This document shows, piece after piece, positions 4,473-60,993 of a stretch of DNA of 64,000 nucleotides; the first letter of the stretch is position 1, and the number at the start of each line of letters is the position of its first letter. Origin of the DNA: Antedon mediterranea (Eukaryota > Echinodermata > Crinoidea > Comatulida > Antedonidae); contig NC_092672.1 of NCBI RefSeq assembly GCF_964355755.1, positions 10,598,501 through 10,662,500 of the forward strand, read 5' to 3'. The translations under genes were made by a program, and so were the position numbers. The notes beneath the pieces are model-generated. The model searched no databases. It saw nothing but the letters and a program-made list of their open reading frames with translations, and was not told where the DNA came from.

Positions 4473-5319
4473 TGTGTAAATAATACAATGGAAGAATACG
4501 GCCAATAATAAAAAATATAACAGATGTTGGTCCAAAGATTATTTAACTTTCTGTAACGTAGGCCTACGTAAGCCAGGCCCTAGTTAGCATAGTTCTAGCA
4601 GGAACACGTGCGCGCGCCTGGTGCTAGCTCATACAGTAGGCCTAATAGATTTTCTTTCTGTAGAATGGCCATCACGATCGGGTAGTTATTAGCACAGAGT
4701 GGTGTTAGGCAAAAATATAAGTTTTATGCATCGTAAATAAAAAAATGTGCGCGCATGGCATGTTTCGTCGGCGGTGCCCGCCATTTTTTTTTTCTAAAAA
4801 AAGTGCAACCTCTATTTTATGAAGACAGTAATCTTTAAATATTGCGCCTTTTCACTGTGGCCTTTCACACAGAAAACATTACCGTAATATTACCTTCTGT
4901 GTGAATAGGTCTAGAGCGATTTGAAGTGATCATCGAGTACGGCGTTGTTGCCTTGTAGACTTTCATGCTTTTAGCATGATTTTGAGCAGTATGTGGTTCA
5001 AATTTAACACTTATGTTATATTATAATTTATATCGATAAACGCTAATGTAGAACAATTCACCGCTAATGTCGAAACAACCGCATGTAGATTGAACAATCC
5101 ACCGCTTATGTAGTGTATCTTTACTACATTAGCAGTGAATTGTTCTACATTAACTGTTGTTTCGACATTAGCTGGCGTTTTCTACATTAGAGGTTGTAAC
5201 AAGGCCTAAACTGGTGGCAAGGATACAGTGATATTAATGTGTTTGAATAATGTGAATACAATAAAGGAGAAACAATTAACAACATATTAATATAAAGGTA
5301 TATGTCTCTTCTCTCACAG
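4473..5319. other. Non-coding interval; probable final intron of the receptor gene
   Basis: Ends in a pyrimidine-rich tract and AG at 5318-5319, the acceptor of the receptor exon. Contains the inverted CTAATGT motif cluster (5036-5190). No additional exon was recognised. Confidence 0.5.
5036..5190. repeat. Inverted cluster of CTAATGT motifs
   Basis: Motifs of the type GCTAATGTNGAA occur in the left half and their reverse complements (TTCNACATTAGC) in the right half. The halves can pair around a centre near 5115, for example AGAACAATTCACCGC with its near-complement GCAGTGAATTGTTCT. Probably a small MITE or hairpin element. Confidence 0.55.
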
Positions 5320-6328
5320 GCATTCTGAATTTTTCAGCATCTGTTGCCTTGTTGGTTATATCGAGACCTGCAAGCCAATTGATACTTTTTCTTCGTGTGC
5401 TGATTTACTAAAAAAAGAAGTTCTCCGGATTTTAATGATGATTATTGGAATATCATCATTAATTGGCAACATCATTGTTATTGTATCACGGAGGGTGAAC
5501 AAAGACAACACTGTCGATTCTATCCTAATCAGCAATCTGGCAGTTTCTGACATGCTAATGGCGATTTACTTAATAATCATTGCTGGTGCGGATTTACACT
5601 ACAGAGGAAAGTACGCGACATTTGCAAGAAAGTGGAAGAGTAGTTTTCTTTGCAGCTTTGCGGGTGCAATTTCCACTCTATCGGGTGAATGTTCGGTAAC
5701 TACATTAATGGTTATGAGCATCGATCGCGCTATAAACATCGTTTATCCATTTAGCACTAAACGTCTCAACCGTACAAAATGTAGATACTATATCTGCATT
5801 GCTTGGCTGGTTTGGATTTCTATCAGTTTCCTTCCATTAATCAACAGACGCCTTATCGACATCGAATACTTTGGTGACTACTACTATGGACAGCAGAGTG
5901 TGTGTCTTGCTTTACCACTGACACGAAGCCGATGGCCAGGCTGGGAGTATGCTACTGCCGTATTTATTGCCTTTAACAGTTTGGGGTTTATCGTGATCGC
6001 AAGTAGTTACCTAGCGATCTTCTTTTCGGTTAGGAGATCAGCATCCACTGCTAAAAGACGTCAGAAAAGAGAGGAACAAATCAGAATCGCCAAGAAGCTA
6101 GCGTTCATAATTTTTACCGATTTCTGTTGCTGGTGTCCAGTTATTGTGATGGCGATTGGTTCAGAGATGCGCTTGTTGGATATTGATGATGACATATATG
6201 TTTGGTCAGCAACTTTTATCCTGCCGATCAACTCAGCCGTCAACCCCTATCTTTACACAATCGTTTCGTTGTGTGACAAAAAGTTTCGAAAAAAGGATGA
6301 GTTAAATTTAGTAAAAGTTAGTTATTAG
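5320..6328 (+). CDS. LGR/relaxin-receptor-like GPCR, last exon (partial gene)
   Basis: Last coding exon of a leucine-rich-repeat-type GPCR; the upstream part lies outside the window or was not found. Reading in frame from the acceptor at 5318-5319 gives 335 residues and a stop at 6326-6328. It begins with a cysteine hinge (ICC...TCKP...FSSCADLL) of the kind that joins LRRs to the 7TM bundle in LGR and RXFP receptors. All seven helices follow: GN in TM1, LAVSD in TM2, a conserved Cys before TM3, DR (variant DRA) after TM3, WCP in TM6 and NPYLY in TM7. The ATG at 5435 lies inside TM1 and is not the real start. In the family such receptors bind peptide or protein hormones at the plasma membrane; the ligand here is unknown. 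It could also be an LRR-less relic. Family certain, subtype less so. Confidence 0.85.
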
Positions 6329-11110: not shown

Positions 11111-12280
11111 ATTTAAATGGCGGATGCCAATTAATTAGAGATCTGCGATACGAAATGGAAAATATGGAAAGGCCATAAATGTTTTGTAATCGTACAACGA
11201 CAATAGGTAATACGTGGTGATCCACATGCGATCTCAAGGTTCATAGAATTTACCTAGATACAGAAGTTGAGACAATAATAAGACCAATGCAATCAAACAA
11301 CAGACAAAATAGAATCACTTGTTATTTTTAATTTTGTAGTCAATAATTAATTGCATGGTATTCGAGAAAATTTTGTGTCGTCTCCATCGTTACCATCATA
11401 AATGATAACAATTTTCGCGACAAGCATAACATTTTTTAATTAAAGAGATTATGATTAAATGCAGTATAAACCAAATAGAAACACGTTAATTAAAAAGTAA
11501 GTCGATGAGTGACTACTGTCGTCCTGTAAATTAGATCTTATAATGATACTTGCGGATGTACCGTACGTTCTACATGTTTGTTTTACATAATTTCAGCACG
11601 CTAAAGGCATAAATCACCATGATCGACGTAGAAAAGTATGTCCCTAATTTAGTAAGTAAGTTAGGTTTTCCAAATATCAAATCGCACCTTCCGAAGTGAT
11701 TTCTTAAACTAAAATAGTATACTTGACAGGTCGTTTTGACAAATTATTTTGTTTTAAATTTCACCTTAGTGTACGTCGCCCTAATGAGAATTCATCCTTT
11801 ATTTTGAACCTAACCTAATTATGTCTATCGTTCACTTTTTACATAAGATATGTACCATTCCGTATGTTCATCTTTAGCTGTATAAGTCAATAAGTAGAAC
11901 ATTTTGAAGGAATGATTTTAATAAAGTTATTAATAAATATTCTACCGAACTCGTAACCAAAGATTAACCTGGAATGATATTATGTTTAATTACTTTATTA
12001 GCACTGTGTTAGTATATTCAACTGTAATTTATCAGTTTGTCGTTACTATAGGCCATGTCAAAATATAAATAAATTTTTGTCGGTATTTGACCTTCATACT
12101 AGATAATGAATTATTACACCAGCAATTAATTAGGGTCTTTCATATTATGTTTTACAAGTTGGTAAATTAATCAATAATCAATTTCTGCTACACAGGCCCG
12201 TAAAGCATGGGTGATTAAAGGGAATGTTTATACAAATGATAATAAGTATGGATACGTTCTAAAACTATGGAGATGTAGAG
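11111..12280. other. AT-rich intergenic / distal 3' UTR of the class A GPCR
   Basis: No ORF with recognisable similarity. On the minus strand AATAAA (TTTATT on plus, ~11990) is the first poly(A)-type signal noticed downstream of the receptor stop at 12859, which would place the 39-bp minisatellite inside that 3' UTR. Confidence 0.4.
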
Positions 12281-12281
12281 A

Positions 12282-12736
12282 GATGTACCGACCTCTCCCT
12301 TCTCCTACCATCGGTAGAATGATGTACCGACCTCTACCTTCTCCTACCATCGGTAGAATGATGTACCGACCTCTACCTTCTCCTGTCATCGGTAGAATGA
12401 TGTACCGACCTCTCCCTTCTCCTACCATCGGTAGAATGATGTACCGACCTCTACCTTCTCCTGTCATCGGTAGAATGATGTACCCTTCTCCTACCATCGG
12501 TAGAATGATGTACCGACCTCTACCTTCTCCTGTCATCGGTAGAATGATGTACCGACCCCTCCCTTCTCCTACCATCGGTAGAATGATGTACCGACCGCTC
12601 CCTTCTCCTACCATCGGTAGAATGATGTACCGACCGCTCCCTTCTCCTGCCATCGGTAGAATGATGTACCGACCGCTCCCTTCTCCTACCATCGGTAGAA
12701 TGATGTACCGACCGCTCCCTTCTCCTACCATCGGTC
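12282..12736. repeat. 39-bp minisatellite, ~12 copies
   Basis: Unit GATGTACCGACCTCTCCCTT + CTCCTACCATCGGTAGAAT, one copy shortened around 12478. Subtypes alternate (ACC/GTC before ATCGG; CTACC/CTCCC), with the last five copies homogenised to CCGCTCCC. Each unit holds a weak inverted repeat (TACCGA...TCGGTA) able to form a hairpin. Since 39 is a multiple of 3, several frames stay open on both strands (plus frame: 13-aa repeats of the type MMYRPLPSPTIGR), but there is no independent sign that any is translated. It starts ~120 bp after the stop of the minus-strand GPCR. Confidence 0.95.
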
Positions 12737-12858
12737 TTCCAAAGGAATAAAAACAAACTAACTAGAACATGCCCATTTACCCTCCACCTTTCCGATAAAA
12801 CAACTTGTTGGCACACGTCACCTATAGTACTGTTGCTAATAATGCCCACAAGCGGCTC

Positions 12859-15045
12859 TCATTTTGTTCGTAAATAATTACGAAAACGTCGAACGCTGTG
12901 GCACAGCTTCAATGTCGAGGAACAATCTTTACGAAAACGTGCATTTAGAAAACTGTAAACGACAGGATTGCAAGCCATATTTATTATGTATAAAGATTTC
13001 AGAAACAGAAATAAATCGTTTGTTTCTCCCGTTGCATACTCAACAAGAGAACAGATGAAATATGGCAACCATGTTGCTATGAAAATCATACTGACAAATA
13101 GTAGCATTGTTGTTGTACGCCCAAGCGTTTGAGGTGACGTTTTACCCGAGTTCCGACGAAAACCATACGAAGAGGCACTCCGTACATTCGGGATTAAACT
13201 GTTTTCGTGAAAACCATCACTGTCCACCGATGTGTTTTGCCTCTTCAATCTGCTGATCAATGTATTTGTGTTTAAAACGTTGGGCTTATTTGCAGATTTA
13301 CTAACTTCGTTTTTTAAGTCGTGTGGTTGCAATAGTTTCGTTTTATAAAGTGGTATTATATCCGAGTCTCCGTGATTCACTTGTCCAATATTAGTCTTCT
13401 GCTTTGACTTTCTTCCATGTGAACCTATAAGATCTCTGTTTGACAAGTGATCAATGACACTATCACTTCGCGTAACCACAACACTTCCTGCCAGTGCAGA
13501 CATACGAGCAAGACTCCAAAATGTACCTTTCGTTGGCCTTTCTTCTGATAACTCGTTGGAAACATTTTCAGTCGAAGTGTTTTCTGTCACAGTTGTACAA
13601 TTCTCTGTTGCAACTTCAAAGATTTCTTTTGACGCAGACAAATTGTTTTTAATTTTAAGTTTTGTGGACATCCATCCCGATCCATGAGTGTCTTTCACAT
13701 TTTCTTCGCTTCCTTTTGATAAAATGTTTGTGTTCCCACTGGGAGCAAGACTTTCTGGTGAAACAATAATATTTCCAACGGACACAGAGCTATGGACAAG
13801 ATCTTCGGATGTATCCACCATGCTTGTTCCTAATCCAGACCTATATGTAAATTCCCCGTAAGCTACGCTGTTTAGTGGTGCAGTATTAAAAGTACTGCGT
13901 TGGTCTGGAGCAGCACTTTGTGTCATCAGAATACTTTCGGGAGAAATATCATCAACCAGTAGCTTTGGAACATTGACATGCGAGGATGACGGTGTTGATG
14001 TGGTTGATGTTGATGGAATGTTTTTGGATGATGAAAGGGAACTGGATACATGTTCATTGTGATGTAATTGCACAAGTGTTTCATCATCTTGTAAAACAAT
14101 TTGTCTTCCTCTTGTCAATTTGTGTTTTGACTTAGTTTGATTATTTCCAACCGATGGAGTTATGTCATTGTCGTCAGGTAATTCGCCTTTAACGGAAACT
14201 TGAACCTGAATTTTTAAAGCTGCCCATTTGTGCTTGCTGTTGCCACGTTCATTGTGACTTGCCGTTTCACGTGGAGAATTCAGTTGAGCAGATGCATTAT
14301 CGCCCGTCTTCCGAAAACCGTTTGTTTGGTTACTAGTGGGATAATTAAATGCGCGAATGACATTATTGACCGTGGCAATCTTTCCAAATTCTTTTCTGAC
14401 GTCAACTCGTCTTTTCCCCTTCAGTTTTTCCCCCACCCTGCGTTGCTGTCGAATAGTTCGATATACATGAAAATAAAGTACCAAAACCGTGGCAGAAGAC
14501 AACACGAAAATTGTAAAAGATAGAGCAAATAGAACGTTTACAAACCAATTTTCCATTTCATATGCGCATTTTTCATATACAAAAGTCAAAATCAATGTAA
14601 ATAAGACTGAGAAAAAGGTTGGAATTAAAACACATAGAAGAATAGACATTTTTGTGCACGTCGTTGTGACAATTTTTCTAAATTGATACGGACGGCAAGT
14701 GGCGACGTAACGTTCTGCGGCTATCGTAGTGGTTATCAAGATTGATGTTATGCTACAAGAAGTCGTGAACATCAAATCTAGTGTACACATCGCTAGATAG
14801 CTCTCGTCTATCATAGCTAATTTGAACGGTAAAGTCGTGCAGCAGCTGACAAGATCGACAGTGGCCAAAGCCAGAATTAACATGTGTGTGCTCGCTTTAT
14901 TTTGTTTAGCAACAAATACTCTAATGACGATGCTGTTACCAGGAATACCGATTACAAAAACTATTGAAGTGATAATAAATAAGATGATGTTTGTAGGTGC
15001 TTTAAGATGATCGCTATCGCTTCCTGAATCAGTCTGGTTTTCCAT
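12859..15045 (-). CDS. Class A (rhodopsin-family) orphan GPCR with very long third intracellular loop
   Basis: 728-aa seven-helix receptor in one uninterrupted coding exon. Rough positions: sequon NQT at residue 3; TM1 20-44 with GN; TM2 53-78 with LAxxD; Cys87 and TM3 ending in ERY (111-113); a Cys in the second extracellular loop (KCAYE); TM5 ~170-198; TM6 ~644-668 with WLP (659-661); TM7 with NPVVY (693-697) followed by a short basic tail with cysteines. The loop between TM5 and TM6 is ~440 residues, Ser/Thr/Asn-rich, with several basic runs, and reads as disordered. The Asp of TM3 used by amine receptors is absent (Thr at 3.32), so an amine ligand is unlikely; peptide or other orphan ligand is possible. 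Start chosen at the first ATG after an apparent 5' UTR acceptor near 15066. Plasma-membrane G-protein signalling is inferred from family. Confidence 0.9.
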   Translation of the reverse strand: MENQTDSGSDSDHLKAPTNIILFIITSIVFVIGIPGNSIVIRVFVAKQNKASTHMLILALATVDLVSCCTTLPFKLAMIDESYLAMCTLDLMFTTSCSITSILITTTIAAERYVATCRPYQFRKIVTTTCTKMSILLCVLIPTFFSVLFTLILTFVYEKCAYEMENWFVNVLFALSFTIFVLSSATVLVLYFHVYRTIRQQRRVGEKLKGKRRVDVRKEFGKIATVNNVIRAFNYPTSNQTNGFRKTGDNASAQLNSPRETASHNERGNSKHKWAALKIQVQVSVKGELPDDNDITPSVGNNQTKSKHKLTRGRQIVLQDDETLVQLHHNEHVSSSLSSSKNIPSTSTTSTPSSSHVNVPKLLVDDISPESILMTQSAAPDQRSTFNTAPLNSVAYGEFTYRSGLGTSMVDTSEDLVHSSVSVGNIIVSPESLAPSGNTNILSKGSEENVKDTHGSGWMSTKLKIKNNLSASKEIFEVATENCTTVTENTSTENVSNELSEERPTKGTFWSLARMSALAGSVVVTRSDSVIDHLSNRDLIGSHGRKSKQKTNIGQVNHGDSDIIPLYKTKLLQPHDLKNEVSKSANKPNVLNTNTLISRLKRQNTSVDSDGFHENSLIPNVRSASSYGFRRNSGKTSPQTLGRTTTMLLFVSMIFIATWLPYFICSLVEYATGETNDLFLFLKSLYIINMACNPVVYSFLNARFRKDCSSTLKLCHSVRRFRNYLRTK

Positions 15046-15066
15046 GTTTTTTCGTTATGGGTTGCT

Positions 15067-18426: not shown

Positions 18427-18438
18427 AAAATTCAAGGG

Positions 18439-21225
18439 ATGGCGATCCAAATGTTTGTAATCGGTGCAATAATTGTGATAATCTACAAAATATATCAATG
18501 GTGTATGAGTCCGAGGACAGATTCAGCACACAGACAACGCACTGCAGGTGGTGGGATAAACAATCCCCCATCTTATGAAAGTCTGTATCCCAGACTGCCT
18601 GAAAATATCAGTACTTTTGGAAGACTTGGTAAGACGCTCGGTTTGAAAAAATCTGAGTCGTTTATGACAATTGCTGATAGGTTTACAACACAAGAAGAAG
18701 TGGCAGATGCAATTCAACGCGCTGGATTGGAGTCTAGTAATTTAATATTTGGTGAGTATATTCCTAAAGGTGAATATAAATGTAAAAGAACTTTTTTTGT
18801 TTATCAGACATTTTCTTTCTCAATCTGGCTAACTAATAAAGGTTATCCAACTATCGTCACATGAAAATAGAATTTCACCTGTCCTAATGAAATTATTTGT
18901 ACCATTCCACTCATAGTCATAAACATTTATTATTTGTATACTGTATAACATAACATTGTCACAGATGTTTGAATACTTGCAGAATACTAACCAACTGTAT
19001 TTAGTGTTTGAGGTGATTTGAGATATTCCCAGTTTAATGTTTGTATCATTGTCATATTTGTTGTGAATGCAATTGTAATGCATTGTTACTTTAAGTCCTC
19101 TACATTTTAAGTAAATCTGGAATAGATTGAATTGAATTCAGAATAGATTGAATTGAATCCAGAATAGATTGAATTGAATCCGGAATAGATTTAATTGAAT
19201 CCGGAATAGATTTAATTGAATCCGGAATAGATTTAATTGAATCCAGAATAGATTGAATTGAATTCAGAATAGATTGGATTCAATCCAGAATAGATTGGAT
19301 TGAATCTAGAATAGATTGAATTGAATCCCGAATAGATTGAATTGAATCCGGAATAGATTGAATTGAATCTGGAATAGATTTGATTCAATCCAGAATAGAT
19401 TGAATCCAGAATAGATTGAATTGAATCCAGAATAGATTGAATTGAATCATTTTATTTGTAGGTATTGATTATACAAAAAGTAATTTACACCAGGGAAAGA
19501 ACAGCTTTGGTAATCGAAATCTTCACTCAATAGATTATGGTACTTTAAACCCATATCAACAAGTAAGTACAGTTAGCCTCTTCTTTTGGCACAATTGACC
19601 ATACCGCGATAGTCATATTTGGTGTGGAAGAAGGACAGTTGACTGTGCATCAACATCATTGCTTAGAAAAAGATGCACATCCAGAACTCACTAATAGGGC
19701 TACAGACATTTCTTGCCCAATGTTTTAAATACAACACTGGGAACTGTGTAATAACCTCCATATTTTGTGGTGAAAAACTCCTAAATTCCTTGTAGTGATA
19801 TGTGATGCCAATTGTGAACAATCAATTTCTCGTATTTACAGATGAGTTATGATATTAATTTGTATACATATGGGATCCTCCTTTTCTCCATTGTACACCT
19901 ATTCAGCAATAAATACTGTAGCCTACTCAGATGTTCGTTTTATTTTTGATTGTGTAATGGCTTTGGCTTGCCTTATTTCTAAATCTAAGATAAAAGAGAT
20001 TTTAATCCACGGATCACGATAGTACCGTCTTGTTGGGACAGCAAGCAGCATCTTTTTTGTAATTGATGTATTCGGTCCTCTACAATATATCGAATATACT
20101 GACTGTATATAAAGTCGATGCTCCAACAATTTCACATTATCCTATTGTTTGAATATACAAGTTTGTAGTTATCCTTGTCGACCTCATTTCTATCCCTATC
20201 AAACCCTCTCTTGAGCATTTGCTTATTTCTATATTTGTGTATCAACAGGATACTAACTTCTTTATTTCATTCTACTGAACCAGGTCATAAAAATTTTAGG
20301 TTCAACATTAGCATCCTTTGATGATGACGGATACATCCCAGTGTTTGGATTTGGGGATGATTCTACAAAAGACAAGGCTGTCTTTCCTTTCAGATCTGAT
20401 GGCTTATGTCACGGGTTTGAGGATGTCCTGGATTGTTACAATCAAATTACACCTACAGTTAATTTAAGCGGGCCTACAAATTTTGCACCGCTTATAGAAA
20501 AAGCAATCAGTATTGTACGAGAAACGCAATCGGTACGTTTTTTCTTTTTGTGTTACAAATATCTAAAAAATATTGTTTATTCTTAGTTCATTCTTATATA
20601 GTGCATACAAGCAGGTTCTCAATGAAGTTGAGCAGGAATTAACATCTTTAATCAGGAATTAATTTATAGTTACTGTATTAATTTTAAAAGGCAGTTCTAC
20701 TATTTTGGATGCAGAGTAGAACAACTATAGTCAAAAACTTTGGGTGGCAAAAAATTCTCGAATTGTTTACAAAAACCTGAATATGCCTTACAGTCAATTA
20801 GATATCGTAGAACGGATACCAAACTGCACATGCATGCATATTAACCACTCAAATTGCAAGGATACAGTCAGGTGTGTTATATTAAGGGATATCCTACTTT
20901 TATTTATTTACAGTATCACATTCTGGTCATCATAGCAGATGGTCAGGTGACGAGTGAACGACAGACCCGCGACGCCATAGTCCGGGCTACTCAATACCCT
21001 TTATCGATCATTGTGGTGGGTGTAGGTGATGGTCCATGGCGTCATATGCGCGAGTTGGATAATTGCTTGCCAGAAAGAAAATTTGACAACTTTCAGTTTG
21101 TAGACTTTCACAGTGTTATGCAGTATTCTGTATTTCCAGAGCCTGCATTTGCATTAGCGGCATTAATGGAAATTCCAGACCAATACATGTTAATAAGAAA
21201 ACTAGGATTGCTAGATTTCAACTGA
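18439..21225 (+). CDS. Membrane-anchored copine-domain (RGLG-like vWA) protein
   Basis: Four exons: 18439-18751, 19462-19562, 20284-20532 and 20914-21225; phases close and give 324 aa. Residues ~4-20 form one hydrophobic helix, followed by a low-complexity linker with PPSY at 43-46. The rest is a single copine/von Willebrand A domain of the type found in plant RGLG ubiquitin ligases: [18 protein letters not shown] with a MIDAS signature DYTKS (107-111), [30 protein letters not shown] and DNFQFV. It ends right after ALMEIPDQY...LGLL, where plant RGLGs continue into a RING finger; here a stop follows. No C2 domains, unlike true copines. Metal-dependent protein binding on an intracellular membrane is inferred. 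The first exon follows an acceptor at 18426, so a non-coding 5' exon is expected. Confidence 0.88.
19117..19450. repeat. 21-bp intronic minisatellite
   Basis: About 16 copies of GAATAGATTGAATTGAATCC in intron 1 of the copine-like gene, ending ~10 bp before the exon 2 acceptor (AG at 19460-19461). Internal variants include GATTTAATT and one copy lacking part of the unit near 19400. Confidence 0.95.
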
Positions 21226-48397: not shown

Positions 48398-53040
<4,643 letters not shown>

Positions 53041-53316: not shown

Positions 53317-56300
53317 ATGGCACCTGGTGGTAAAACAAGGAAATCATCAAGGAAACAAGTTGACCTAAAAACCAAGAAACATGAAATCAAATTAAAGGTA
53401 AATTATAACACTGACTGAGAGTCTGAATGAATATCGCCCTCCATGTTACCCACTACCAGGGAGTTGTTTGCAACTCCTAGCTGCTACTACCAGGCAGGGA
53501 GTTGTAAAATAAGACTCCCTGATGCTACATTGTCATTTTTTGGCTCGGATTGATCTCTTTGTAATATTTTGAGTAATTATACCGTACTACTATATTTCTT
53601 TATTTTTTCATTTTAGATAGAGAAAAATGTAAAAAATAATTAATAATGCTAATGTATAATAAAGAGAAAATGCTTTACTTATCTTTAACAGCAATAAAAT
53701 ATACACAAACAACAGGACAATGAGCTCGCCTTGCCAAGATAGAACTCGTAACAGTCCTTTGATCTTATGTCTGGCTGCTACAAATACCATGCATACACTG
53801 TGTACTATGATACATAGTCTACGGCGCGCAGCATGACCCTGATCTTGTCGCAGCCACAGATACATTGAACTTGTTATAAAACCAATAAAACTTAAAGCAG
53901 TAAATACTGAAAATGTGCACTCCATAGGATTTTCCTCCATAGCTGCGGCCTGTGTGAATTACAACCAGAATGGGAATGTTATCTTTCAAAGTTGTTAAAG
54001 CTGGAGAACAACTTTTTATAAAATTCTTTCAATGATACTACTAGGTTTAAAAAGTTCTTTTTTCCCTACAGATTCAAGCAAATGCCAAGAAACCAATAAT
54101 CAGGTGGCAGAATAAGAATATTTTACACACATTGTATCAATATCGGGCTGGGTGTTGTACAACCAACAACATTAGACAGGTATGTGTCCAAAAACATAAA
54201 AATAAATGTCTTAAATCACTAATTACCTTGAAATTTAAAAGACCAATCAATACATATTTGTTTAATGGTAAAGAAATGCAGAGCTTATTCTCCTGTTGTC
54301 GCTTCCCATTTTTCTTCCAACATCCTGGAGTTCATTACGTGTACAGCCCCATTAGAGAATGTGTTCATTTTTACCCGAAGTTTTTCAAAACTTTGGGTAA
54401 ATGTCACTTAACCTCCTACTGTGACATGTGTTTATATAAGTCCAACTTTGATGTTAAAAAAACAAAAAAAAATATCATTAGATAATATGTCTATTGCATA
54501 ATACCTTACCCAGAATATAAACATTTATGTCAGTTGTCATATTAGAGTTAACAAATCATTTTTTTTACTTGATTTTGGATCTTCTTGACCTTTAACCTAA
54601 AAAATTTAAAATGCTAATTAATGTTAAAATTATACTCTGAATTACAGGCAATCATCAAACCATTTCAAGAGAAACTAACAAAATACAGGATATTACGAAC
54701 ATCCAGTCCATTTGACAGAAGAGTAACGTCAATGGCGTGGCATCCAACAAAACCGACCACAATGTGTGTAGCGTCCAAGAGTGGCGATTTTCTTTTGTGG
54801 GATTATGAAAAGTTGGACCACTCTCAGTTTGTTCGTGGAGTAAGTATAATAAATTTTGATTGCTTATTCTAAAATTGTAAAACTCTTTTAATGTCCAGAA
54901 TAATGTACAAATGAATACGGACTACTTTTGTGTGGCACAGAAAGTGGAGGTACAGTTGAGCCGGCCCCTGTGGTTTTTATATTTTTCTAAACATTTCATT
55001 TTCAGATTGAGAATAACTCAAGTTTAATAGCCGATTTTATTGTAATCATAATTATTGTAATATTCTCAATAAGTACAGTACAATATAATAGGCCTACAGT
55101 ATAATCAAAATATAGAAAATAAAAGGCATCACTTGATACACTGATGTCAAGAATTAAAGATTTGATCAAGGGAAATCTAGGCCTACTTCTATTTCACCAT
55201 AATCGAAACTGTCCGAAGCAAAGATGTATTGTTCCCCAAAAACAAGAAAAATGAAGATTAATAAAATCAGATTTTGAATGCCATTTTGATTACTTTCTTG
55301 GAAAAAAAAGAAATTTAACCCAAAAATGCCTTGCCTAGCAGCCAATTTGACTTAGATTACAGTTTTTCAGGTACATTATTTTTTATTTTGATTCAATTTT
55401 TGGTGAATGAATAAATAACTATGTGACATTAATATTGCATATATTCAACAAACAAATTAAAAAAAATATATATTATTTTAGTCGGTCGGACAATATCTTT
55501 AAAGTCATCTGATTACGGGTTTTTTCACATCTCTCATGTTTTCATTGAGGAACCTTTTCAATTTTAAAACATTGTTTAAAGGGATGCAACATCCCAGCAA
55601 TGAAGTTTGACCCCAATTTTATTTACACGGCAACATGTGATAGTTCGGTTCCGAGGCAGGATTTTGAAGGGCGCTCGCAACACGTTTTTGTGAACACTAA
55701 TGATTTGGCGTCAGTTGGTTCTAGTTATACTTGTGTTAATTAGTGATGTTTAATTCTCTGCAGTTGGGTAAAGGTGGTAGTATTCCTGCTTTGAAATTTG
55801 ACATAGACTCACCAGATCACATCTACACAGTATCTGGAGACGGATTGGTTCTACGTCAAGATTTTGAAGGTCGCTCAAGACAGGTCTTTTTCAATACTAA
55901 TGATTGGTCGTAAGTTATTGTACTGATTCTAATGGCAAGAGAGAATGTTTGTAAAGAATGAAATGCCTTGCCATTGGCATCAATACCCATGACAAACTGT
56001 ATTTCAGGACATTGATTCTGTAAACTGGATTCAGCCAGTACTGTGTTCAGAACTTTTATTCTGTAAACTTGATTCCGCCAGCTACTGTGTTCAGAACTTA
56101 ATTCTGTAAACAGGATTTAGCCAGCTACTGCGTTCAGAACTTTAATTCTGTAAACTTGATTCAGCCAGCTACTGTGCTCAGAATTTAATTCTTTAAAATA
56201 TATTCAGCCAGCTGTGTTCAGAAAATTTTAATTCTGAAAACATGATTCAGCCAGCTGTGTTGTGTAAACAGGGTGCAGCCAGCTGTGTTCATAATTTAAT

Positions 56301-59300
56301 TCTGTAAATTGGATCAGCCAGCTGTGTTTATAACTTTATTTCTGTAAACTACTATAGTGGAGCACTGTGGCGCAGTGGCTAGAGCATTGGACTTGCAATC
56401 AAGAGGTTGTCGGTTCAAGCCCCGGCTTGGTCACTGCAGTGTTGAGTCCTTGAGCAAGATTCTTTATCCACATTTTTCCTCCCCACCCAGGTGATAGAAA
56501 TGGGTACCGGTATGTAAAAAGTACTGGGAAGGTAAACCAGACTCGTTTGTGCGGGAGAAGTGGCGTACCCCCCACAAACATACACACTTAGTGGAGTCTG
56601 GCCCAAACGCTAAAGAAATGGAGATGGGCACCACGGCCTTAGGTTTCGACTCGAAACTACAGTATATTCAATCAGCTGTGTTCAGAACTTTAACTTTGTA
56701 AACTGGAATCAACCAGCTGTGATCAGTAAACCAGTTGAAACCTGTTATTTTATATAATTAATTAAATTTGATATAATTGATATCTTTTTGTGTGTTTCAG
56801 ATTTTGGTTTTGCAGTCTTGATGTCAGCTTTAAAGCTAATCTTGTTGTAGCTGGCGACAATGTTGGCAAAGTTTGCTTGTTCACACGACAAGGAGAGAAG
56901 GTACTTTTTTATGCTTTTAAAACTGTTTCTCATATCACTGTTGAGCTTAGCAACCAACAATGTGTCAAATACTGTGGTATGATTTCAGGATTCTGTATTT
57001 GGTCTAAGAATGGAGGAGTTTCCTTCATTGCCATAGACTAAGATACCAGCTAACAATTACCTCATTTTGTTTATTTATATAAAACAAAGAAATTCTTCAT
57101 TAGGCCTTTGTCATTAAGAATAGCCTATTGTTGTTGCACATACACCTTATCTGCTTTATTAAACACTTACTTTTGCTGGTGTATATAAATTAACTATCCA
57201 TGTTTCAAAGTTCTAAAATAAATTTGTGTTGTACTTTTCAAGAAATATCAATGAATTGTAAATGCATTGATTATTGCTGGTTATATTTTTCTGGATACAA
57301 TTTTTTTTAAAATGTATAGTGATAATATTTCAGTTTTCAAATATAGTAATATCCCTGTTGATCGAGAATTCTTTTTTAAAATAAAATTTGGTAACAGGGA
57401 GTTTGTGTCTCACATAAGATAACCATAAAAGAGAAACAGAGAGAAATAGAAGTGAAAAAAAAAAAAGGCAAATTGATATTCTGGCCCATATTGAACCCAC
57501 AGAGAACTCAGGATAACTTGTGGACAGAATCATGCCATACAAACAAACACATTTCCAAACAAGCTAGTAACTATAGGCCTACTTGGAAAATGCAGATATT
57601 GTGTTAAATAATAAAGGAAGACATCCAGCCATTGAATCCTACTTTTTTTCCAATTCCATTGTTAACATTTTAACTCTTGAAATACCTAAAAACAAAAGGT
57701 TTTTGTCTTCTGTCTTGAGTTTGGTTTAAGCTGTTACTTTTAAAAATATTTTGAAAACCAATTGTTGACTTGTTTCTCAAAGCAGAACTCATACAGTATC
57801 AATGATAACAATGTTATGGCAGTATATGATAACAATTTTTAATAATTTTGTCACCATTTCTAGTGTCTTATGAAAATAAAATTGAATTGAACAAGTTAAA
57901 ACATAACAATTAATAATAAAAACAATAGTATTATCCTAAAGCTCTGTCCATATATGGGCACATCACATTTTGTTGTCACATAAAGTTTTATAGTATAGAC
58001 AGAGCTTAAAAATCACAATTTTTTGGCAGAAAGGACTTGTTTCCTTTCGTCACTCGCCACAATAATATTTTTTGTGTATAGTTCTTTCATTTATTATGTA
58101 GTAATGTATTATTTATCAAAAGGTTTCGTCTGATCGTCTGCACAAAGCAAAGGTTACACATTGCGAGTTCAATCCTTCTTGTGATTGGTTGTTAGCAACT
58201 GCGTCCGTTGACAAAACTGTGAAATTATGGGATGTCAGGATGATGAAAGACAAGAACAGTTTTGTGCAATGCTTGTCACACGAGAAACCTATTAATTCTG
58301 GTAATTTCTTTTAATGAAATTTTCCATCTAATTAGATGATTATAGAAACAAAAGGGGGCCTATAATTTTAAAGGGTAGTTTTAATGAACTAGCTGAATTT
58401 TTTTATACGAAGTTTCTGCATCTAGGCCTACGCCTTGGAGTAAATATAATCCCCAGGCTATATCTACCCCTATATAGCGCGCTAATGTGTGATGGCTGAA
58501 TGGGCAGTGTGTGGGTCTTGCAACGTCATGCTGTAGCGTTAGGCTAGGGTTCAAAACGCATTGGTATAATTTTTTTTTTTGCTCGCCATCTTCTTTATTG
58601 ACTATCATCTTTTCTCACCATTTTCCTAGATGTATATTTTTTCTTAGGTTATGAGGGCCCGAGACAGAGGGTGGGATAGGTATAGATATTTGCATAGTGT
58701 AAACCTAGCCACTACGTTTTTTATATATATTGAAAACGATTATTAGAAATTGAACATTAGAAGGATGTCACTAAAAATAGAAACTTTTGCGGTTGTTGGG
58801 ATCCTTGATATATGGTAGCCACACACCAATCTCTTAATTGGAATTTACATAGCCATTCCAACCTATCTAAAAAATATTAATGCCTTTATATACCGTAATA
58901 ATAATAATCAATATGATGAGCAACACAAAAACAAATTTAGGAGTTCTGTTCATGTTTTTGGCTAATTGTTAAACTAATAAAGTACTTAGTGCAATAATAA
59001 TTTGTGCTCTACTCTAGCTTATTTTAGCCCTGATGGTTCTAGACTACTGACCACTGACCAACACGTTGACATTAGGATATATTCAGGTCCTTATTGGTCA
59101 GACACCTACAACACTATTGTTCATCCGCATCGATTCTATCAACATATTACGCCTTTTAAGGTAAGTAGGCCTACTGCATGCCAGAAATAGATATGATATA
59201 AAAACAAATAATATGGCTCATCAATTTATTGGTTTTTATATTTATTTTATGTTTTATAGTTTTAAATTTACAGAAAAGAAACATTTTATAGATTACATCT

Positions 59301-60993
59301 TCTAATCTACTCATATGTCTTCTAGGCTGTGGACATTAAGCTTAATTATTATTGATCTGTGGTGAATCCAGGAGCGAGGGCCTACCAATTTGAACCTATT
59401 TTCTGCATTCTATTTTTCAACATTTAAAAAGTGCCCCTTAAGAAGAAACAGAATTTCTAAATTTCTTTCGTACTATTTTTTGTTAACATTCTGAAAATAC
59501 TGTAAGCAGAGGTCTAAGATCTTGTGTTCATTGTCACTTTACCAAGTTTTTTGTTAGCCTAAACACAAATTTACTGCAGTCAACCACAAATCTAAGATGG
59601 TTGTTCATGACTCAATAAGAACTACATGAAACCAATATTTCCAGAAAGCATTTTTAGTGTGAATATTCTCATTAATTTTACAGGCTACATGGCATCCAGT
59701 GCATGATATTATTGTTATTGGTCGATATCCAGATTCAAGTTTTCCTGGTTACCGAGATGGAGAGTGTCGTACTGTTGACATGTTTAATGCCAATACTGGA
59801 AAAATAATTTGCCAATTGCTGGATCCTAGTGCATCTGGGATAATATCGGTAAGAGGATAGACATTAGACTGGCTTAGCCGATACAGGTCAACATGAGCGT
59901 TCCAAGCAACTGATCGCAACTTTAAGTAGCACACAGTTGGCCAAAATATGTCGACATTTTGCATAGTTGACTTGCTTTCATTTGAACATAAATTTTGAAA
60001 TGTGTTACATTTGCAGGTTGCAACATCATGACAAGTTGCAATCAGCTTAATGGAAACATAGTATTTTATTTCTGTTCAATTGCTTAAAAGTTGATAAAAA
60101 TGCTCTTGCGCAACTACAGTTGCGCTCTGTGTCAACCTAACATAGCATTTCTACAGCATTGGTTCGGTTTGGTTGTGGATCTTGGATGAGCAAAGATCTC
60201 CCTTTTAATATACAACAATCAAAGAAAAAGAAACAGTTTATTACTTAAAAATTAAATTGGATTGAATTTAGTGGTGTTTAGGTAGAAAAATAAAGGTTTT
60301 GCGTAGACTAACTTATTGTAACAACTTGTTTCTACAGTTAAACATGTTTAATCCCAAGACAGATGCATTGGTCTCTGCAATGGGTAAGTTTTCTGAAATC
60401 AATAATCTCTATTTTATTACTTGTTTAAAGTATTTTGCAGCGAAAAACCAATTTAGTCAATTTCCCAACATATTTCCAATTCATTGGTTAATAATTAACC
60501 TTCAAGAGAGTAAATTTAGATCTAGAATTGATTTAATTGATGTTTGTTAGTGTGAATATGATATTTATATTATAATTGCATTAACTTACTTTCACATTTA
60601 TATTACAATATTTATAACAATAAAACATATTGAACTGATAGTTTTAAAACAAATTTTTAAAAGGAATTGACAATTACTGATTTGAAAATAACATTTTTAT
60701 TGATTTTTTTTTATTTACCCAAAGGATATCACATTCTAGTGTGGATAGGAGATGAAGAAGCTTTTGAGAAACAACAAAAAGTGATGGAATCGTTACGAGC
60801 AAACAGCTCCAACATCGGTGGCCCATCAACGTATAGAAGACCGAGACGAAGAAGAGATAATAATGATGAGAATGATGAGGATGATGACGATGTCTCTTCA
60901 ATGAAAAAGAAAATCAAAAAGCCTAAACAAAGTAAAGCTAAAGAGGAAAAAGAAAACCAGAAAGTTAAAATCAAAGGAAAGAAATCAAAGTGA
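53317..60993 (+). CDS. DDB2: DNA damage-binding protein 2 (WD40, UV-DDB subunit)
   Basis: Ten coding exons: 53317-53397, 54072-54179, 54648-54839, 55764-55909, 56801-56900, 58123-58300, 59018-59160, 59684-59848, 60338-60383 and 60725-60993; 1428 nt, 475 aa. DDB2 recognises UV photoproducts in nuclear DNA and links to CUL4 through DDB1. Evidence: basic N-terminus, [51 protein letters not shown] (WDxR DDB1-contact motif at 245-248), [13 protein letters not shown] (lesion-probing hairpin, Tyr309-Gln-His), [16 protein letters not shown] and MGYHILVW. After the propeller comes a ~75-residue tail, acidic ([10 protein letters not shown]) then Lys-rich, not in the ~427-aa human protein. An additional copy of exon 4 lies at 55582-55709. 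The exon 6 acceptor (TTATCAAAAG) has a poor pyrimidine tract. Confidence 0.96.
53608..53940 (-). CDS. Hypothetical 110-aa hydrophobic ORF nested in DDB2 intron 1
   Basis: Not recognised. The ORF begins [20 protein letters not shown] and contains three hydrophobic stretches separated by basic residues. A pyrimidine-poor acceptor-like CACACAG lies 9 bp before the ATG. The N-terminal part (53720-53940) is GC-richer than its surroundings and looks more coding-like than the AT-rich C-terminal part. It may be an exon or relic of a membrane-protein gene or chance. Confidence 0.25.
   Translation of the reverse strand: MEENPMECTFSVFTALSFIGFITSSMYLWLRQDQGHAARRRLCIIVHSVCMVFVAARHKIKGLLRVLSWQGELIVLLFVYILLLLKISKAFSLYYTLALLIIFYIFLYLK
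55220..55503. mobile_element. MITE in DDB2 intron 3
   Basis: CAAAGATGTATTGTTCCCCA at the left and CGGACAATATCTTTAAA at the right form imperfect inverted termini. It ends about 80 bp before the alternative DDB2 exon. Confidence 0.65.
55582..55709 (+). other. DDB2: Duplicated, putatively mutually exclusive DDB2 exon 4A
   Basis: Open reading in the phase required after exon 3 (phase 0) and ending in the phase required by exon 5 (phase 2): 128 nt, donor GTCAGT at 55710. It encodes a recognisable copy of exon 4B (55764-55909), sharing IPAx[14 protein letters not shown] and NTND, but is 6 residues shorter. Its acceptor (ATTGTTTAAAG) lacks a good pyrimidine tract. Using both exons would shift the frame. 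Whether it is spliced into mRNA or is decaying cannot be told from sequence. Confidence 0.75.
56016..56725. repeat. Minisatellite (CAGCCAGCTGTGTTCAGAA type), split by a SINE
   Basis: Roughly eight units of about 45-60 bp containing TTCTGTAAAC, GATTCAGCCAGCTACTGTG and TTCAGAACTT at 56016-56350. After the SINE the array resumes at 56668-56725. In DDB2 intron 4. Confidence 0.85.
56355..56665 (+). mobile_element. tRNA-derived SINE in DDB2 intron
   Basis: Head with box A-like TGGCGCAGTGGCTAGAGC and box B-like TCGGTTCAAGCCC, then a ~230-bp body ending near TTTCGACTCGAAACTAC. A different family from the 22540 and 48570 SINEs. Confidence 0.8.
57939..58007. mobile_element. Internally deleted MITE copy (AAGCTCTGTC family)
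   Basis: AAGCTCTGTCCATATATGGG...ATAGTATAGACAGAGCTT: the left terminus is joined directly to the right half; the 21-bp motif region is missing. Confidence 0.8.

Follow-up and report, generated by a model that had tools for sequence, protein, structure and literature searches.

We found that exon 4 of DDB2 is duplicated in tandem in the crinoid Antedon mediterranea and that the upstream copy, exon 4A, was, to judge from its codon pattern, a coding exon under selection through most of its history, rather than a simple neutral copy. In global-genome repair, UV photoproducts are sensed first by DDB2, which carries mutations in xeroderma pigmentosum group E. An initial annotation, made from a 64,000-nucleotide stretch of the genome (the window, within which all positions are numbered), had proposed that exon 4A and the canonical exon 4, here called exon 4B, are spliced as a choice of one or the other. 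We found that reading frame and spacer geometry imply that A replaces B if A is spliced at all; the proposed exclusivity thus stands on that condition, and the evidence that A was a selected coding exon is added to it. Compared with the initial annotation, the case is stronger for a past coding exon and weaker for present splicing. We consider the chances about even that A and B are a working mutually exclusive pair.

An intact DDB2 gene with two versions of exon 4

The window contains a complete and intact DDB2 gene with 10 exons and 475 codons to the stop, at positions 53317 to 60993 of the forward strand (Table 1). All of its introns are GT-AG. We determined the phase of each exon in turn, and the canonical gene is free of stops across its 10 exons. 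Residues 42 to 400 of the predicted protein match human DDB2 with an E value of 4e-125, and the best non-DDB2 protein reaches 1e-33, so that the full-length product matches DDB2 better than it matches other WD40 proteins. The gene is single copy: a translated search of the 354-Mb assembly recovered its exons in order, and it recovered neither a second DDB2 gene nor further exon copies elsewhere. The DNA is also present once in the genome.

Table 1. Exons of DDB2 and features of the exon 4 duplication, numbered within the window
Feature	Position	Strand	Description and basis
DDB2 exon 1, start codon	53317..53397	+	Phase 0 to 0; GT-AG junctions, continuous reading frame
DDB2 exon 2	54072..54179	+	Phase 0 to 0; reading frame
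DDB2 exon 3	54648..54839	+	Phase 0 to 0; upstream exon common to A and B
Former start of exon A	55570..55581	+	CAT, two former codons TGT TTA, then AAG; ungapped alignment to B
Exon 4A	55582..55709	+	128 nt, phase 0 in, 2 out; homology to B, third-position excess, low dN/dS
Exon 4A donor GTCAGT	55710..55715	+	GGC/GTCAGT, C at +3, score 1.88
A-B spacer	55710..55763	+	54 nt; strict branch-point candidates TTAAT
Exon 4B (canonical exon 4)	55764..55909	+	146 nt, phase 0 in, 2 out
DDB2 exon 5	56801..56900	+	Phase 2 to 0; downstream exon common to A and B; has the W203-aligned residue
DDB2 exon 6	58123..58300	+	Reading frame
DDB2 exon 7	59018..59160	+	Reading frame
DDB2 exon 8	59684..59848	+	Reading frame
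DDB2 exon 9	60338..60383	+	Reading frame
DDB2 exon 10, stop codon, lysine-rich tail	60725..60993	+	Reading frame

The coordinates, lengths and phases initially given for the two exons were all borne out, as were their shared motifs and the size of the spacer between them. Exon 4A comprises 43 codons, including the split one, and is 6 codons shorter than exon 4B. The two agree at 26 of 42 aligned residues and at 82 of 126 nucleotides, and A carries a single internal deletion of 9 nt. When we searched the whole genome by tblastn, the region from 55576 to 55710 emerged beside B as a homologue of DDB2 exon 4 (E value, 1.2e-6; 62% identity). The DNA similarity is limited to the exon and the first donor bases, and the intron flanks cannot be aligned, so the duplication is old. 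Searched alone against solved structures, exon 4A gave no match even at an E value of 10, and exon 4B alone gave only 0.012. Thus, the link of A to DDB2 comes from its match to B and from its position. We ruled out that A and B form a single continuous exon, because the frame halts at a TAG in the spacer.

As far as sequence can tell, the pair has every feature that a standard predictor of mutually exclusive exons looks for (PMC3228551). The lengths of 128 and 146 nt differ by less than the 20 residues that WebScipio allows. Splice pattern and phase agree, and the full frame is open with either exon. The encoded segments are homologous, as given above, and both exons are internal, with coding exons on both sides (exons 1 to 3 upstream and 5 to 10 downstream). 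Joint inclusion is opposed by the 54-nt spacer, with its predicted branch point, and by a premature stop. A literature search, in which few subscription journals were covered, returned nothing on mutually exclusive exons in DDB2, in agreement with the initial annotation, which knew of none.

Several other features surround the duplication. Next to DDB2 and divergent from it is a triosephosphate isomerase (TPI) gene (48404 to 52824, reverse strand), whose first coding exon lies about 490 nt before the start codon of DDB2. Intron 4 of DDB2 carries a minisatellite of about six copies of a 43-nt unit, TTCAGAACTTTAATTCTGTAAACTTGATTCAGCCAGCTACTGTG (56003 to 56256, forward strand), which begins about 90 nt past the 4B donor; diverged copies were seen by eye to about 56340 and around 56680. 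The same intron holds a sequence that by eye resembles a tRNA-derived SINE, at about 56360 to 56660 of the forward strand (GGCGCAGTGGCTAGAGCATTGG ... GGTTCAAGCCCCGG). ARAGORN called no tRNA in the window, and no RNA families were found.

Farther away, two frames encode rhodopsin-type receptors by their Pfam 7tm_1 matches, one at 5291 to 6325 on the forward strand (E value, 1e-31) and one of 731 residues with an unusually long third loop at 12862 to 15054 on the reverse strand (E value, 1e-29). A copine-type gene lies at 18427 to 21222 of the forward strand (Pfam Copine E value of 1e-33 for 20845 to 21222; 18427 to 18861 assigned by eye). Two long coding-like tandem arrays at 50892 to 51609 and 12178 to 12750 are built of a 21-nt-type repeat (read as YLNISLP in one frame and as FEHITTI in another) and of a PLPSPTIGRMMYR repeat, and on both strands several of their frames are open. 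We counted 28 occurrences of the palindrome TAGGCCTA in the whole window, compared with about 0.7 expected from base composition.

Past coding selection on exon 4A

The differences between A and B number 11, 8 and 25 at codon positions 1, 2 and 3, so that 25 of the 44 fall at third positions. At 26 codons the residue is the same in both, and 14 of these show a silent difference. A codon model with a single omega for A and B gave an estimate of 0.02, and values up to about 0.1 were nearly as good, with silent sites saturated. A model in which A has been neutral since the duplication and B constrained (omega of 0.05) was about 10 log-likelihood units worse (-291.8 versus -281.5). When all of the divergence was simulated in a neutral A, not one of 1839 simulations gave as many as 25 changes at third positions or retained as many as 26 residues. 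Taken together, the codon likelihoods and the simulations show that A was under protein-level selection for most of its life.

It is very improbable, given these data, that A is a neutral partial duplication that never functioned or an artefact of assembly. Frames that stay open for 42 codons are no rarity in the introns of the DDB2 region (5.5% of positions), so the openness of A alone is uninformative and would suit a copy that was never functional, but the codon pattern rejects neutrality throughout. The 35% nucleotide divergence excludes a haplotype or assembly duplicate.

The same models bear on a second explanation, which we regard as a serious possibility though somewhat on the doubtful side: that A is a former mutually exclusive exon now decaying, its splicing recently lost and its open frame not yet broken. 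In a two-phase model, with A constrained and then neutral, allowing neutrality for 20% of A's age cost only 1.9 log-likelihood units. Under this model, A could have lost its constraint over about the last fifth of its age with an almost equally good fit. At 10% neutral divergence, and with an assumed indel rate, the chance of an unbroken frame is about 20%. Base composition points the other way. The GC content at third positions is 0.48 in A and 0.29 in B, compared with a GC content of 0.21 to 0.40 in the introns, and the CpG ratio of A (0.92) is the highest of the region, with introns at 0.12 to 0.63. Standing above the neighboring introns in both respects, A would, if mildly, seem not to have drifted neutrally for long in AT-rich DNA. 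The high values could possibly reflect exonic splicing signals.

Splice sites and the predicted choice of one exon or the other

We scored splice sites with weight matrices built from 40 donors and 40 acceptors of EEF2, enolase, EEF1A, TPI and DDB2 in the same assembly, and real sites were scored with each left out. Junctions were located by a protein-guided search; the guides were human protein sequences, in which small errors are immaterial for junction finding. Exon 4B scored 9.9 at its acceptor and 6.2 at its donor (7.1 under the full matrix). The donor of exon 4A, at 1.88, scored below all 40 real donors, the lowest of which reached 2.99. Its acceptor, TTTAAAG/GGA, scored 3.46, at the 10th percentile of the 40 real acceptors, and AAAG/G intron ends also occur in two genuine DDB2 introns. 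The initial annotation had called the acceptor of A weak; we found it mediocre, and the truly weak site is the donor.

For splicing in phase, A has a single acceptor, the AG at 55580 to 55581. We found that the A-B homology reaches two codons upstream of this site and that the tblastn match begins at 55576. Thus, the AG lies inside the former exon. The acceptor CAG of B (55761 to 55763) corresponds to CAT at A, and A's original acceptor seems to have been lost by this change. On the simplest reading, an AG that arose 9 nt further in, when a lysine codon changed silently from AAA to AAG, would be its substitute. The strict branch-point candidates upstream of A are cut off from its AG by another AG at 55548 to 55549. 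Two other acceptors were considered for A, at 55482 (score, 7.9) and 55550 (score, 3.1), and both are out of frame with it.

Decay would account for a donor weaker than any compared, for the loss of the homologous acceptor and for the AG interposed between branch-point candidates and acceptor. Against it, A is without a stop or frameshift, and the surviving in-phase AG/G preserves the frame exactly. Weak splice sites are also common in regulated exons.

The initial annotation had further claimed that including both exons breaks the frame, and this was confirmed: a transcript with A and B ends 9 codons past the A-B junction, and one with neither exon ends 6 codons past its junction. The predicted branch points have their A at nucleotides 30 and 44 of the spacer and lie within 50 nt of the exon 4A donor. 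Joint assembly on a donor and a branch point has a limit of roughly 50 nt (PMC7969005; PMC5740500), and potential steric interference is found in 9% of human mutually exclusive clusters (PMC5740500). The shortest of 38 measured introns is 108 nt, twice the spacer, and the median is 489 nt (37 introns from the automatic search). In this genome, then, the earlier statement that 54 bp is too short for an intron holds, but it is no absolute rule, since human introns of 43 to 65 nt do get spliced (PMC8363638). From the spacer geometry and the predicted branch points, we infer that a steric block to A-B joining is likely but not absolute.

A different use of A appears unlikely, whether as a poison exon by which DDB2 levels are reduced or as an alternative first exon. 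A poison exon, acting through A+B transcripts or through A ending at the spacer TAG, would draw on the premature stop that follows from inclusion of both exons. For this role, though, the 26 of 42 conserved residues and the third-position bias would be superfluous, and the geometry disfavors A-B joining. An alternative first exon could start at an in-frame ATG within A (55600); it needs no acceptor, which would explain the lost one. The codons upstream of this ATG (GGA, ATC CCA GCA) differ only silently from those of B, so they were translated, which argues against such a start.

We favor a model in which an old tandem duplication of a whole-blade WD40 exon was retained as a mutually exclusive pair. 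According to this model, the spliceosome would join exon 3 to either A or B and then to exon 5. Joining of A to B would be blocked because any branch point in the 54-nt spacer is less than 50 nt from the donor of A. Transcripts with both exons or with neither would shift frame, end early and presumably be degraded. Exon 4B, with its strong sites, would give the normal sensor, and exon 4A, with its weak sites, may give a minor or conditional isoform that is 6 residues shorter and has a changed photolesion pocket.

The lesion pocket and comparison with known systems

Exon 4B aligns without gaps to residues 153 to 201 of human DDB2, a member of the same protein family (PDB 9j8w and 6r8y; PMC12606344), and by the general WD40 pattern, exon 4 would correspond to one whole blade. 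A cryo-EM structure shows UV-DDB bound to a nucleosome that carries a cyclobutane dimer; there, the lesion is contacted by G154, A155, G156, I200, N201 and W203, and I200 and N201 read the methyl groups of the lesion (PMC12606344). In the alignment to the human protein, all of these positions except W203 fall at the two ends of exon 4. Thus, the duplicated unit forms much of the DDB2 lesion pocket. We tabulated the contacts in exon 4 together with W203 and found the residues of a lesion pocket in the exon 4B form: those aligned to G154, G156 and W203 are kept, and A155, I200 and N201 are replaced by K, W and S.

Exon 4A differs from human DDB2 in lacking residues aligned to 153 to 155 and three more in the loop at 167 to 170. 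At the I200 and N201 positions it has L and A, whereas B has W and S. Of 16 residues common to B and human DDB2, it also alters 5 (G157C, S158N, L162M, S176T and G179S), some of them mildly, and it has a proline at a position where B has leucine. We know of no duplicated blade exon in human DDB2. An A isoform may have an altered choice of lesions, may have lost binding or may simply misfold. It is conceivable, but we think improbable, that the animal makes two DDB2 sensors by swapping a blade, with splicing tuning which lesions are recognized or giving a form that binds the DDB1 ligase but does not grip the lesion.

Weighing the whole, a working pair would be favored by the matching phases, the intact frame, the similar length, the codon pattern, the spacer size and the GC3 and CpG values of A. 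What would count against it are the donor of A, the apparently lost original acceptor, the interposed AG, the altered residues among those shared with human DDB2 and the proline in place of the leucine of B.

The arrangement resembles systems in which the splicing is established. In OGDH, mutually exclusive use of exons 4a and 4b is enforced by branch points 25 to 41 nt from the donor of the upstream exon, closer than 50 nt, and these exons too are an ancient tandem duplication (PMC7969005). Splicing has been proven and both isoforms have been studied in OGDH, whereas the DDB2 pair is known from geometry and past selection. The human and Drosophila clusters defined by WebScipio criteria likewise consist of neighboring internal exons of similar length, shared phase and homology, with an incompatible frame if joined (PMC3228551, PMC5740500); unlike these, the DDB2 pair is known from its sequence. 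Alternative splicing of duplicated exons is also reported for AOX, a stress gene of the oyster and thus of an invertebrate, for which two mRNAs were identified, but the gene and fold differ from those of DDB2 (PMC5589949).

If the two exons do give two sensors, DDB2 of A. mediterranea would be, as far as we found, the first damage sensor to vary its lesion pocket through alternative exons. If exon 4A is dead, the locus would be a well-marked case of the loss of a mutually exclusive exon.
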